Origin: Pseudomonas sp. ADAK13 | GTDB lineage: Bacteria > Pseudomonadota > Gammaproteobacteria > Pseudomonadales > Pseudomonadaceae | Length of the DNA stretch: 64,000 nt | NCBI RefSeq assembly: GCF_012935715.1 | Contig: NZ_CP052860.1 | Location: 3,596,001-3,660,000, forward strand | Direction: 5' to 3' | Part shown: positions 32,779 through 38,422 of the stretch, one piece after another | How positions within the stretch are numbered: position 1 is the stretch's first letter | Layout: each line of letters starts with the position of its first letter | The notes under the pieces: model-generated | What the model was told of the DNA's origin: nothing | Database searches by the model: none | Seen by the model: the letters and a program-made list of their open reading frames with translations, nothing else | Made by a program: the position numbers and the translations under genes

Positions 32779-33478
32779 GTGTACATATCCGTTATTCAGG
32801 TAACGGCTACTTATGGTTTCGCTCTTACAGCGAGTCACTTTGGAAAAGCCCCAAAGTAACCAAAGGGCTCTGCCCCGCCTGTCGGCACCTCGCCTAGGCT
32901 CGGTGTTCCCTCACTCCGGCATTGCTCCGCGGGCCGCCGCGACGGGGCGTCCCTGCCCCGTCGCGGCTAAACCGGCGTCCTGCCGGTTTACCCGCTCCTC
33001 AATCCCTGCGTTCGGCCTCGGGCTTATTGGGGCAGTCAGATCAAGATCAAAAGCCAGAGCACAGCGGCCTACAGGCCGGCTTGAGTGGTAGAAGCCAGCT
33101 CCCACATTTAACTGTGCCCGCTCTGGCTTTAGATTTTGATTTTGCCTTTGCTTCACACCACTCAAGCCGGCCTGTAGGCCGCTGTGCTGTTGATCTGCTG
33201 TTGATCTTGATCTTAGGCGCCCCGTTAAACCACGCTGGCCGAACGCAGGTAGTACGGAGCGGGTAAACCGGCAGGACGCCGGTTTAGCCGCGACGGGGCA
33301 GGGACGCCCCGTCGCGGCGGCCCGCGGAGTAGTACCGGAGAGAGGGCACACCGAGCCTAGGCGAGGTGCCGAGTGGTGGGGCAAGAGCCTTTTGGTTACT
33401 TTTGGGCTCTTTTCAAAAGTGACCCGCTGTAAGAGCGGAACCCATCGAAGCCATCACCCAAATAACGGATATACACCC
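32779..33478. repeat. large inverted repeat, copy 1
   Basis: About 310-330 base arms (about 32779-33090 and 33150-33478) are imperfect reverse complements around a 60-base centre. Outer ends read ACATATCCGTTATT and AATAACGGATATA. Each arm holds smaller perfect hairpins, for example GACGGGGC-GTCCCT-GCCCCGTC and AAACCGGC-GTCCT-GCCGGTTT. No transposase-like ORF is inside; the ORFs it contains are low-complexity artefacts. A second copy is at 46611-47433. It resembles the dispersed large repeats described for P. fluorescens genomes. Confidence 0.85.
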
Positions 33479-33497: not shown

Positions 33498-35675
33498 CTA
33501 CGCAGTCTTCCCGGTATGGTTATTCAGCGAAATAACCTTGGTCTTCCCAATCCGGTGACGATAAATCTCACGCAGGTACTTGATCGCCTTCTTCACGCAA
33601 TCCCGCGACAACCGGATATCGTTGATCGACACAAACTTGTCCTTGTCGTTGATCAACTCACGGTATTTCTTCTCATACATCGGTTTGATCGCATACCAGT
33701 TGGTATCCAGAATCTTCGCCGGGTTCTCAAACTCATTGAGCAGCTCATCAATCCGGTCTTCATCAAAATCCTCATGGATGATGAAATCCAGAATCGAATT
33801 ATCCAGCGTGTCATCAAACCGATACGGATTGCGCGCAAAGCAGCGCTTGATAAACGCCACGATCAACGTCAAAAAGTCATCCGACAAACACGGGCTCTTG
33901 GCGATCAACGTGGTCAGGGACAAGTTGGCCGACGCCCCGATCACCAGCGCATAACGCTTGAGGGTCGTGTTGGGAAACAGGCTGTTGAGGTGGGTCTTGA
34001 GCCGGTTCAGGTCCATGTAGGACAGCTTGTAGTCCTTGGGCAACGACACAATCGACACCACCGACGAGCAGTTCTTGAAGAAGTGCAGGTCATGCAGCGC
34101 CGCCGCGTCATACCCGGAGTTCTTGTACTGCTCCAGGGATGCCTTGTAGCGCTTGGACTCAATCGGCAGCAGGCTGATGCCTTCGATCGCCTGGGTCACT
34201 TTGTTGAAGTGCGGCAGGTCAATGGAACGGAAAAACAGGTCGTCGATGTTCAGCCGCTGCGGCTCTTTTTCGAACACCTTGAACTTGTCGCTTGAAGGCG
34301 CCGGGGTTTCCGGCACCACCGATTCGGCGTAGGCAATCGCCACCGGGCCAGCCAGGCTCATGAACAGGTCGTTGGCATCCAGGCGGATGGTCTCGCCGAT
34401 GTCGATCCCGGCCCGGCGGAAATAGTTCTGGTCGTAGTCGGTCGTCACCGCCTGGGCCGTCAGGATGTTGAAGATCTGCTGCGAGATGTACTGGTTGGCG
34501 TGCTTTTCCATGGCATTGACATCAATGTTCTGGATGTTGCCGTCATCGCTTTCCTCGGCGTAACGCATGATGTCGTTGGAGATCAGCATCATCGCGTTCC
34601 ACGGCCGGATGCGGCCTTTCACGCTGGCTTCGCTGCTGTCTTCATTGTCGAAGTTGTACGAGAAGTCCCATTCTTCCGACAGGTATTTGCACAACAGGCG
34701 CCCGGCGTTGATGTGCAAGGCTTCGGACATTTCACTGCGGTGATCTGAGATGTTCGGCAGCACGCAAATGCCGCTGGTGAAGATCGGCTCGAACACGAAG
34801 GCGTGGCCGCTCTTGCTGTCGTGCTCGTCGGCGGGCTTGGTGTCGAACGTCTTGTTCATGTACGAGTGCTGCTGGGCCAGGCCGAATTCCGAGGCCATGC
34901 CCGAGCCGGTCCCGCCGCCGGCGCTGAAGATCGAGAAGTACAGGCGCGACTGGTTGGCCTTGATGCCGCAGGAGTCGATCAGGTACGAATGGATCATCTT
35001 CCAGTCGGGGCTGGAAAAACGTTGGGTGTCTTTGTTGAGGATGATCTTGGCCAGGTACTGGCCGAGGATCGGCGCGTTACCGGCGCCACCGGCATGGACC
35101 TCCGAGAGGTCCATGATTTTCATTTTGCTGTAGTCCCGCAGGAAACCGCTTTTCTCACCCTTGCGCGAGAAGCGGATGCGCCCGGCAATGTCCTTGTCCA
35201 GGTCGCCCAGCATCACCAGCGGCTCGACCAGGAATACCGGCTTGGTGCCCTTGTTCGAACCCAGGCGCAAGTTGTTGCGAATCCACTGGGCCGGGCGGTA
35301 GCCCTTGTCGGTGGATTTATCTTCGTTGCTGAATTCGTTGAGGTAGAACTTGCGGGCGTTGTAGACCAGCTCAGCCACGTCCAGGGCAATGTTCGAACCG
35401 CAGCGGCCCAAGCCGATCAGGCACACCGAGGGGAATTCCTGCTCGTTGCGCAGTTCACCGTCGACTTCCAGGTGCGGTGCACGCGGGAACACCATGTCGC
35501 GCAGGCCGTCGAGGTTGTCGAGGATGCGGTCGGTGTTGGTCTCGGTGAAGTACAGGTACTGCTGGGTGGCCAGCGGGCGGGCGGTGCTCAATGACTTTGA
35601 ACCTGAGGGTTTTTCCGCAGGAGTTGTCAGCAACACGTCGGATACCGCGGTGGCAGAGTTATTTTTAGAAGTCAT
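33498..35675 (-). CDS. tubulin/FtsZ-superfamily protein of unknown role
   Basis: 725 residues. An N-terminal Rossmann-like glycine loop SVCLIGLGRCGSNIALDV (about 83-100) and, about 165 residues later, the tubulin/FtsZ G-box FSAGGGTGSGMASEFG (about 250-265) identify a GTPase of the tubulin superfamily. The spacing is larger than in FtsZ because of an insertion, and the C-terminal 400 residues match nothing I know. It is far longer than FtsZ or phage PhuZ, and fits the tubulin-like (Tubulin_2/FtsZl) group proposed to act in membrane remodelling. No strong ribosome site is seen. It is a lone gene; its 3' end is 20 bases from a large inverted repeat. Confidence 0.8.
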   Translation of the reverse strand: MTSKNNSATAVSDVLLTTPAEKPSGSKSLSTARPLATQQYLYFTETNTDRILDNLDGLRDMVFPRAPHLEVDGELRNEQEFPSVCLIGLGRCGSNIALDVAELVYNARKFYLNEFSNEDKSTDKGYRPAQWIRNNLRLGSNKGTKPVFLVEPLVMLGDLDKDIAGRIRFSRKGEKSGFLRDYSKMKIMDLSEVHAGGAGNAPILGQYLAKIILNKDTQRFSSPDWKMIHSYLIDSCGIKANQSRLYFSIFSAGGGTGSGMASEFGLAQQHSYMNKTFDTKPADEHDSKSGHAFVFEPIFTSGICVLPNISDHRSEMSEALHINAGRLLCKYLSEEWDFSYNFDNEDSSEASVKGRIRPWNAMMLISNDIMRYAEESDDGNIQNIDVNAMEKHANQYISQQIFNILTAQAVTTDYDQNYFRRAGIDIGETIRLDANDLFMSLAGPVAIAYAESVVPETPAPSSDKFKVFEKEPQRLNIDDLFFRSIDLPHFNKVTQAIEGISLLPIESKRYKASLEQYKNSGYDAAALHDLHFFKNCSSVVSIVSLPKDYKLSYMDLNRLKTHLNSLFPNTTLKRYALVIGASANLSLTTLIAKSPCLSDDFLTLIVAFIKRCFARNPYRFDDTLDNSILDFIIHEDFDEDRIDELLNEFENPAKILDTNWYAIKPMYEKKYRELINDKDKFVSINDIRLSRDCVKKAIKYLREIYRHRIGKTKVISLNNHTGKTA

Positions 35676-35881: not shown

Positions 35882-38158
35882 TCAGCGAATTGGCCGAACG
35901 ATGGCGGGTGGGCTCGCACGGCCCGAGGGCGGGTCTTTGGGTGCGGGTTCACCGCCGGTAATGCCCAGCAGGCTGAACATGTTGTGCGAATCAAGGCCGT
36001 TGATCACTGCGCTGATATCACTCATCGGCACTGCAGCACTGAGCAAGTAACCCTGGACGAAATCACAGCCGTGTTTTTGCACCACTTCCAACTGTTGCAG
36101 GGTTTCCACGCCTTCGGTCACCACCTGCAGGTGCAGGGTGTGGGCCATGCCGATAATGGCCTGGACAATCTCTATGTCGGCGTTGGACTTGGGGATGTCC
36201 TGGATAAAGGAGCGGTCAATTTTCAAGGTGTTCAGCGGCAGGCGCTTGAGGTAGGCGAGGGACGAATAGCCGGTGCCGAAGTCGTCAATCGACAGCGAGA
36301 CACCCAAGGCTCGGATTTGCCGCAGCAGCGCCAGGGTGCTGCTGATATTGCCCATCAGGGCGTTTTCGGTCACTTCCAGTTCCAGGCGATTGGCAGCGAT
36401 GCCGCCGAAACGCAGGGCGTTTTCGATTTCATCGGCCAGCTCGTCGCGGGTCAGGTTCAGGGCCGAGCAATTGACCGCCATGATCAATTCAGTATGACCC
36501 TGCTCCGACAGCAAACTCAGGTCGTGACAGGCCTGGCGCAGTACCCAGTGATCCAGTTCGGCAATCAGCCCGTTATTTTCGGCAATGCCGATGAATCGGT
36601 CCGGGGTCAGCAGGCCGTGTTGCGGGTGCTGCCAGCGCACCAGGGCTTCAAGGCGCGTGATCTTGCCTTTTTTCAGGTCCAGGATCGGTTGGTAGAACAG
36701 CACCAGCTCGTTCTTGCCGCGCAGGGCGGCGCGCAGTTCTTCTTCCAGTTGCAGTTCCAGGAAGGCCCGGGTTTTCAGGTTGGAGCTGAAGAAGTTCAGG
36801 CTGTTGCGCCCGGCATCCTTGGACTGATACAGCGCCAGGTCGGCGGTTTTCAGCAATTCTTCGCTGGTTTTGCCGTCTTCGGGGAAGAGGCTGATGCCGA
36901 TGCTGGTGGTCATTACCATGCGCCGGCCCGCCAGTTCGATGGGGTCTTTCATTTTCTGCATGATGCGCTGGGCCATGTGCCGCGCCTCATCGCGATGATG
37001 GATGCTGATCAGGATGCAGAACTCGTCACCGCCAAACCGCGCGACCACGTCGTCATGGCTGCGCACCGAGCTTTTGATATGGCCGGCCAGCACGGTCAGC
37101 AGTTCGTCACCGGCGTCATGGCCGAGGCTGTCGTTGATGCGCTTGAAGTGGTCGATATCCAGGAAGATCACCGCCAGCATGCCGTCGGTGGCGGTTTTTT
37201 CCGCGAGTTTCTCGGCGAAGATCTGGTTGAAACCACGGCGGTTGAGCAGGCTGGTCAAGGCGTCGTAATGCGCCACCTGTTGCAGGGAAGCGCGGGCCTG
37301 GTCCAGCTCGGTGAGCAGGGCATTGACCCGGCGCAGGTCGGTTTCCTTGTGCTGCAGTTTCTTGTCGGCCAGGGCTGCGCTGATGCTGCTGCCGATCACC
37401 AGCAGGGCGATGACCGCCACCAGCAGGCCCAGTTGGATCGGGTTGTTGTCCACGGGCAGCGCCGAGGGCACGACATCCTCGGGCACCAGCAGTTGCAGGG
37501 CCGCCATGCCGGTGAAGTGCATGCTGATAATGCCGGCACCGAGCACCAGGCTGGCCGCGTACTTGAGCAATTGATGGAACATGCCGGTGCCGTTGCGCAG
37601 GTACAGCGACAGCAGCAGTGCCGCCAGGCTGGCGCCGATGGCAATCACCACCGAGGCCAGGAACAGCCCTGTCTGAAAGTACACGCTCGCTTCGGAGCGC
37701 ATGGCCGACATGCCGACGTAGTGCATCAGCGCAATACCCAGGCCCATCCACACCGACGCCAGCACATATTGGTAAGCGCGTAGCTTTGGATGACTGAGGG
37801 TTTGCATGGCGAACAGCGACGCGATCAGGGCGATCAGCAGCGAGGCGAACGTCATGATCAATTCGTAGTGAATCGCGATGGGCGCCTGGAAGGCCAGCAT
37901 GCTGATGAAGTGGGTGGCCCAGATTCCGCCTGCCAGGCAGCCCGCGCCTACCCAGCGCCAGTGCCGTTGAGCCTTGAGGTTATCGACATGGCCGACACGC
38001 TCGGCCATGTCCAGGGTGCCAAAGCCCGCTGCACACGCCACCACGTAAGCCAGTAGCACCAGAAAGGGGTTATGACTGCAATTGAGTAATAAGTGCCCGC
38101 TGTCCGGAAGGTCGGTAAAAAAATGCAAACCAAGCCATTCCATAGCATGTCCCGTCAT
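35882..38158 (-). CDS. MHYT-GGDEF-EAL cyclic-di-GMP signalling protein
   Basis: 758 residues from the ATG at 38158; an ATG at 38143 (MEWLGLHFF) has a better GGGA ribosome site and may be the true start. The N-terminal 250 residues form the seven-helix MHYT sensor with the repeated motifs THFISM, MHYVGMSAM and MHFTGMAAL, thought to bind copper and sense a diatomic gas. A GGDEF domain follows with intact RFGGDEFCI, then an EAL domain with EALVRWQHP and DDFGTGYSSLAYLKRLP. Both catalytic motifs look intact, so it could make and break cyclic-di-GMP. It is monocistronic. Confidence 0.92.
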   Translation of the reverse strand: MTGHAMEWLGLHFFTDLPDSGHLLLNCSHNPFLVLLAYVVACAAGFGTLDMAERVGHVDNLKAQRHWRWVGAGCLAGGIWATHFISMLAFQAPIAIHYELIMTFASLLIALIASLFAMQTLSHPKLRAYQYVLASVWMGLGIALMHYVGMSAMRSEASVYFQTGLFLASVVIAIGASLAALLLSLYLRNGTGMFHQLLKYAASLVLGAGIISMHFTGMAALQLLVPEDVVPSALPVDNNPIQLGLLVAVIALLVIGSSISAALADKKLQHKETDLRRVNALLTELDQARASLQQVAHYDALTSLLNRRGFNQIFAEKLAEKTATDGMLAVIFLDIDHFKRINDSLGHDAGDELLTVLAGHIKSSVRSHDDVVARFGGDEFCILISIHHRDEARHMAQRIMQKMKDPIELAGRRMVMTTSIGISLFPEDGKTSEELLKTADLALYQSKDAGRNSLNFFSSNLKTRAFLELQLEEELRAALRGKNELVLFYQPILDLKKGKITRLEALVRWQHPQHGLLTPDRFIGIAENNGLIAELDHWVLRQACHDLSLLSEQGHTELIMAVNCSALNLTRDELADEIENALRFGGIAANRLELEVTENALMGNISSTLALLRQIRALGVSLSIDDFGTGYSSLAYLKRLPLNTLKIDRSFIQDIPKSNADIEIVQAIIGMAHTLHLQVVTEGVETLQQLEVVQKHGCDFVQGYLLSAAVPMSDISAVINGLDSHNMFSLLGITGGEPAPKDPPSGRASPPAIVRPIR

Positions 38159-38422
38159 AAGTCTTTGCCTGACAATGCTCTGAGTATAGAGAGCCTGAGC
38201 GGGTTGCAAGGGCTGATGGCAGATTGCTTCTAATCATTTGGCGATGAATTTATAAACAACTAGAACTAAATGAATAGGGATGACAGCCAGGGTCGCCCGA
38301 TGGAGTGACATCAGACTTACGAATCATTACAGACAATCCCCACGGGGCTGACTAGATTGCAGGTTCCGGGCTCAGGATGCGTCTGGCATCGCGGCTCACA
38401 TAACAATAAAAGAGACGGACCC

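Follow-up and report, generated by a model that had tools for sequence, protein, structure and literature searches.

The window, by which we mean the whole 64,000-nucleotide stretch of Pseudomonas DNA analyzed here, carries on its minus strand an uninterrupted open reading frame (ORF; 33498..35675) that starts with ATG and encodes a protein of 725 residues, which we assign with near certainty to the FtsZl2 family of the tubulin superfamily. An earlier note on this DNA had proposed a 725-residue protein here, and the proposal holds up, the frame being open and full-length homologues being present in 26 of 35 same-genus genomes. That note left the strand unstated, and the ORF is to be placed on the minus strand, as the plus strand of 33498-35675 has stops in the same frame. 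The order of genes in the window is a 948-aa gene (presumably uvrA, by our own reading), an MFS-like gene, an MHYT-GGDEF-EAL gene, the FtsZl2 gene, a repeat-rich gap, and a branched-chain amino-acid binding-type gene, where the MFS-like and binding-type identities are likewise what we take them to be. The MHYT-GGDEF-EAL gene (35882..38209, minus strand; 775 aa; Pfam MHYT, GGDEF, and EAL) is given as gene context only. Downstream of the FtsZl2 gene lies a large imperfect inverted repeat (32862-33392) with 156-nt arms that are 90% complementary and 219 nt apart, with perfect 32-nt arms nested inside.

Five loop-like segments of the protein follow the order of T1, T3, T4, T6, and T7 in FtsZ. All lie on the minus strand, as follows: a T1-like glycine loop, GLGRCGSN (residues 88-95; 35391..35414), in which GRCGSN (90-95) is invariant in 47 of 47 homologues; a T3-like loop, AGGAGNAP (residues 195-202; 35070..35093), overlapping the invariant run 199-208; the predicted T4 GTP-binding loop, GGGTGSG (residues 253-259; 34899..34919); a T6-like segment, LISNDIM (residues 364-370; 34566..34586), itself an invariant run; and a T7-like loop, RLDANDLFMS (residues 431-440, including D433 and D436; 34356..34385), invariant in 47 of 47. 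The last two were assigned by order. Both the GGGTGSG box and the upstream glycine loop named in the earlier note are therefore present. The distance from T1 to T4 is 165 residues, compared with 88 or 89 in 14 FtsZ proteins, in most of which the five loops lie near positions 18, 68, 106, 165, and 208.

Beyond the T7-like loop, a variable linker (residues 453-476; 34248..34319, minus strand), in which the fraction of invariant columns is 0.00, leads into two regions delimited by predicted secondary structure. The first (residues 477-600; 33876..34247, minus strand) is an alpha/beta region with strands predicted at 496-500, 538-545, 572-579, and 585-592 and helices at 507-519 and 553-566; its 10-residue pLDDT blocks range from 55 to 87 up to residue 570 and from 39 to 47 over 571-600. 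The second (residues 601-725; 33501..33875, minus strand) is a mostly helical C-terminal extension, with pLDDT blocks of 56 to 90 up to residue 710 and 26% of its columns invariant. Altogether 289 residues follow D436, with strands and helices predicted there, so the C terminus of 400 residues claimed previously shrinks to about 290. The claim that the protein differs in length from FtsZ, TubZ, PhuZ, and BtubA is sound, since the 14 FtsZ proteins have 382 to 419 residues; the lengths of TubZ, PhuZ, and BtubA also differ from that of the window protein.

These features fit FtsZl2 (FtsZ-like 2), a family defined by Makarova and Koonin in 2010 with PFL_1302 of P. fluorescens Pf-5 as its type (PMC2875224). 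As described there, its members have a GGGTG(S/T)G loop together with the elements T1, T4, T6, T7, and H7; inserts lie between T1 and T4, coiled coils are absent, and the C-terminal region is about 300 residues long, with mixed alpha/beta structure; the family is restricted to Proteobacteria, and the legend of a figure lists Marinomonas and Chromobacterium (PMC2875224). The genes were found in association with no other genes, and the paper offers no functional clue, although in a response its authors predicted that FtsZl2 forms filaments (PMC2875224). The window protein is thus not an orphan in the sense of being undescribed, and the membrane remodeling that the earlier note held to be predicted for similar proteins was predicted for the sister family, FtsZl1, not for FtsZl2 (PMC2875224). 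Within the literature searched, the family name FtsZl2 and PFL_1302 appear in no paper besides PMC2875224, and the search, in the text it made available, returned no experimental work on FtsZl2. A 2023 paper on the evolution of the superfamily leaves out the Tubulin_2 "FtsZ-like" proteins and makes no mention of "FtsZl" (PMC9871819). The window protein is therefore of a kind already known, described without a function, rather than a new discovery. What FtsZl2 does is directly testable, as this is a well-conserved tubulin-superfamily protein in easily manipulated bacteria.

The protein is conserved far beyond chance: across 47 homologues chosen for their diversity, invariant positions make up 263 of the 725 columns. 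T4 falls in the longest unbroken run of them (250-264); next come 398-409 and 234-245, then two runs of 10 residues each at the T7-like (431-440) and T3-like (199-208) loops; the shorter runs include 364-370 (T6-like) and 90-95 (T1-like). The two 12-residue runs, 234-245 (DSCGIKANQSRL) and 398-409 (SQQIFNILTAQA), were matched to no FtsZ loop, and the latter may occupy the position of helix H7. D436 is absent from alignment A2 only in P0027, a row that lacks the region. Identity is 77% between the Pseudomonas and Arsukibacterium proteins and about 57% for the most distant member of alignment A1, and proteins 100% identical to that of the window are on record for P. yamanorum IPO3780 and Pseudomonas sp. 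K2I15, among others. Because the whole protein is so highly conserved, the invariant aspartates alone are no proof of catalysis.

Placement in the tubulin/FtsZ superfamily, as the earlier note had claimed, is favored by profile searches and by the T4 segment. The two best Pfam models for the window protein are Tubulin_2 (PF13809; E = 8.9e-4) and Tubulin (PF00091; E = 0.002), with the next family at 0.11, but both matches fall below their cut-offs (19 bits against 27 and 18.8 bits against 33, respectively). FtsZ_C gave no Pfam match at E ≤ 1, no match was obtained with NCBIfam, PADLOC, or PHROGs, and a genome search of the window's genome with PF13809 returned nothing at E ≤ 0.001. At E ≤ 0.05, Tubulin_2 matches 37 of the 47 members (best E = 8.3e-4) and Tubulin matches 32 (best E = 3.1e-5). 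In alignments of individual segments (8 of the 47 rows against 6 of the 14 FtsZ proteins, with 100 column shuffles), the T4 segment scored a z of 8.4 and the T3-T4 segment 5.1, neither score being reached by any of the 100 shuffles. T3 (z = 1.5; reached by 4 of 100 shuffles) and T1 (z = 1.4; 8 of 100) were marginal, and T2, T5-T6, T6, T6-T7, T7-H8, and two C-terminal segments did not rise above the shuffles, whose scores against FtsZ reached those of T6 in 67 and of the T7-like segment in 65 of 100 cases. Sequence tests therefore robustly support the GTP loop (T4) only. A tubulin-superfamily GTPase fold is nevertheless very probable on the evidence as a whole.

A protein search at E ≤ 0.001 returned 663 relatives, and the 120 listed are mostly unnamed or "hypothetical." Besides the window's own genome, the gene occurs in the 26 same-genus genomes noted above, being absent from 9 of the 35, and in 1 of 21 genomes of the same order. 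An even sample of the class gave matches in 3 of 274 genomes, including the window's genome and one GlnE-like match, which was dropped; a sample of the phylum gave 9 of 398, including the window's genome and one broken copy; and a second class sample, queried with the Arsukibacterium protein, gave 4 of 379. Within individual families, matches were found in 1 of 3 genomes (f59), 29 of 48 (f193), 2 of 6 (f14), and 11 of 12 (f213, counting the broken copy in G697), where f193 and f213 are, at a guess, Marinomonas and Chromobacterium. The named matches among those listed (including Arsukibacterium, Rheinheimera, Alkalimonas, Cellvibrio, Catenovulum, Echinimonas, and Atopomonas) are proteobacterial, and across gammaproteobacterial groups the gene has a patchy distribution. 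The broken copy (L034; G697 C1, about 2486898-2489729) lies in pieces with stops, with a GDSL-lipase-like ORF between two of them. Another copy, L210, is rather diverged, with an end branch of 1.21; its genome, G856, measures about 1.7 Mb.

The window's genome is a single contig of 7,300,098 bases with one FtsZl2 match, and the matches listed comprise one per matching genome, save for the pieces of the broken copy. One FtsZ scores over the cut-off in the window's genome, located elsewhere than FtsZl2. FtsZl2 of the window is thus chromosomal, single copy, distinct from the cell's own FtsZ, and, because so many same-genus genomes lack it, accessory. In a quick tree of 47 rows with SH-aLRT support only, most f193 rows fall inside f213 and the f59 row falls inside Pseudomonas, which suggests transfer between families; several branches, that of the f59 row among them, are long enough to have drawn a program warning.

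The best explanation, to which we give a probability of roughly 0.6, is that FtsZl2 is an accessory, GTP-dependent, polymerizing tubulin-superfamily protein that acts apart from FtsZ; here we infer GTP binding, polymerization, and role alike. GTP would be held in a pocket formed by T1, T3, T4, and T6, monomers would stack head to tail, and the T7-like loop of one subunit, through D433 and D436, would complete the GTPase site of the next, with hydrolysis rendering the filament dynamic. Contacts particular to the protein's function, which would be that of a non-division scaffold or positioning filament, may come from the family-specific inserts and the helical C-terminal extension. T7 residues of FtsZ and tubulin work across the subunit contact in the filament, and the invariance of the T7-like residues accordingly argues for head-to-tail stacking. 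Taken by itself, GTP-dependent polymerization is about as probable as the reading of which it forms part.

Among the alternatives, it is unlikely but conceivable that FtsZl2 serves within the tubulin superfamily as a GTP-binding regulator or switch and makes no filaments, with a C-terminal extension that would bind a client and a T7-like loop with a structural role. The large inserts and the roughly 125 extra residues at the C terminus would suit such a protein, and the assignments of T6 and T7 have no score support, but the T7-like loop is invariant in all 47 homologues, and the 2010 prediction was of filaments (PMC2875224). That FtsZl2 instead modulates cell division, co-assembling with FtsZ or regulating it, is quite improbable. 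The presence of one FtsZ in the same genome would allow it, but 9 of the 35 same-genus genomes do without the gene, so there is no general need for it, and no division gene was recognized among the neighbors scanned with Pfam.

It is also highly doubtful that an FtsZl2 filament is under cyclic-di-GMP control, the neighboring GGDEF-EAL protein acting as its regulator, a possibility raised by the gene context. The earlier note saw no partner gene nearby; no operon mate is indeed evident, but the MHYT-GGDEF-EAL gene is on the same strand, upstream, and ends just 206 nt away. The note's suggestion of examining the co-occurrence of neighbors in other genomes yields a divided answer: a GGDEF-EAL gene is close to FtsZl2 in fluorescens and putida lineages, but contexts differ by lineage. 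Members of the GGDEF-EAL cluster occur in 79 of the 92 loci mapped, not always adjacent. When presence is scored at E ≤ 1e-200 over the best 18 candidates per genome, 21 same-genus genomes have both genes, and 19 of these place them no more than 1.2 kb apart; the other two, G013 and G027, carry them on separate contigs. Among the 12 f193 loci, 7 have a member of an Amt-PAS-GGDEF-EAL cluster as the adjacent ORF on one side of FtsZl2 (Pfam having been run on L044 only), and in L042 a PAS-GGDEF-EAL gene lies two ORFs away. The last three of these findings would fit such a regulator. Against it, each gene is also found without the other: by this scoring, the GGDEF-EAL gene is missing from 5 of the 26 same-genus genomes that have FtsZl2 and present in 4 of the 9 that do not. 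L211 and L212 (G031 and G018) retain the flanks together with the GGDEF-EAL gene but have no FtsZl2, and in L214 and L036 it is the GGDEF-EAL gene that is missing, FtsZl2 lying between those same flanking clusters. Many named loci have a 3-hydroxyisobutyrate-dehydrogenase-like gene (Pfam on L077) on the other strand between the two, so they do not form one operon there. Our own grouping, made with the data already in view, gives 13 distinct contexts, of which just 3 place a GGDEF-EAL gene within two ORFs of FtsZl2. Some chance nearness is to be expected because these genomes carry many GGDEF domains (35 in the window's genome, 48 in G737, 62 in G092, and 35 to 64 in 10 of the 14 genomes tested). 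The association, noticed after the fact, is weak.

Other features of the neighborhoods recur. L044 encodes an ammonium transporter fused to PAS, GGDEF, and EAL domains (L044:5568-8630) that adjoins FtsZl2; a phosphofructokinase-cluster gene directly follows FtsZl2 in all seven f213 loci mapped (L034 and L166-L171; Pfam on L034), with differing upstream genes; and xylose-isomerase-like TIM-barrel and 3-hydroxyisobutyrate-dehydrogenase-like genes recur near FtsZl2 in the Pseudomonas loci L036, L037, L182, and L183. A more ambitious picture, in which FtsZl2 would jointly be a second, chromosomal, GTP-driven cytoskeletal filament of free-living gammaproteobacteria, encoded by a single self-sufficient gene passed between lineages, tied to cyclic-di-GMP lifestyle switching, and built with a C-terminal half in which an FtsZ-type second domain (strands and helices in the order S7-H9-S8-H10-S9-S10) precedes a new helical module, is improbable as a whole.

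That the protein is no relative of tubulin, its glycine-rich loop having arisen by chance or convergence, is very improbable. No tubulin fold was predicted: the GTPase half had a mean pLDDT of 44 with 77 rows and 38 with 8 rows, its 10-residue blocks of about 21 to 51 gave no confident model, and neither VIA nor Foldseek placed FtsZ or tubulin among the 50 matches that each listed. Whole-profile HHalign with FtsZ scored 26.8, below the 29.5 of the reversed profile, and the profile segment 140-280 beat 40 of 40 shuffles against FtsZ, but not its own reversal. DUF6562, an unrelated family, matches 10 of the 47 members, in one of them at E = 7.5e-4, level with the best Tubulin_2 match. Nonetheless, the two superfamily models head the Pfam list by number of members, the loop-like segments follow the FtsZ order, and PFL_1302 gave a significant HHpred match to PF00091 (E = 0.0033; PMC2875224). 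Finally, it is hardly credible that FtsZl2 is a TubZ- or PhuZ-like filament by which a mobile element is segregated or positioned. The patchy distribution and the signs of transfer in the tree might speak for one, but no match turned up in 72,556 plasmid and 50,697 phage records, and a chromosomal context is repeated in named Pseudomonas loci.

Among known systems, the window protein comes closest to FtsZl2 as typified by PFL_1302, with which it shares the GGGTGSG loop, the loop order as we assign it, the T1-T4 inserts, a C-terminal region of about 300 residues, occurrence in Pseudomonas, and the lack of an evident operon partner; on comparison with the published description of PFL_1302, we found no difference. 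FtsZl1 resembles it in having large extra regions, and Pfam ranks its Tubulin_2 model first for the window protein, but that match is below the cut-off, and no gene for a vWA domain, a trait of FtsZl1 operons, was present among the neighbors scanned with Pfam. FtsZl1 also contains a coiled coil, and its distribution extends over diverse bacteria and archaea (PMC2875224). With TubZ and PhuZ, the window protein shares membership in the tubulin superfamily outside cell division, but its gene is on a 7.3-Mb chromosomal contig and has no plasmid or phage homologue among the records searched. BtubA and BtubB are likewise bacterial tubulin-superfamily proteins but form a two-gene pair, whereas FtsZl2 has one match in the window's genome, with no gene for a second subunit seen among the neighboring ORFs. 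FtsZ itself has the T4 loop and, by our own assignment, the same order of the other loops, but it is far shorter and without the extra C-terminal extension, and the window protein differs further in its subthreshold PF00091 match, its lack of an FtsZ_C match, and its absence from a quarter of the same-genus genomes (9 of 35). If FtsZl2 does polymerize, bacteria that possess FtsZ would have, in addition, a tubulin-like filament that is chromosomally encoded and not used for division.
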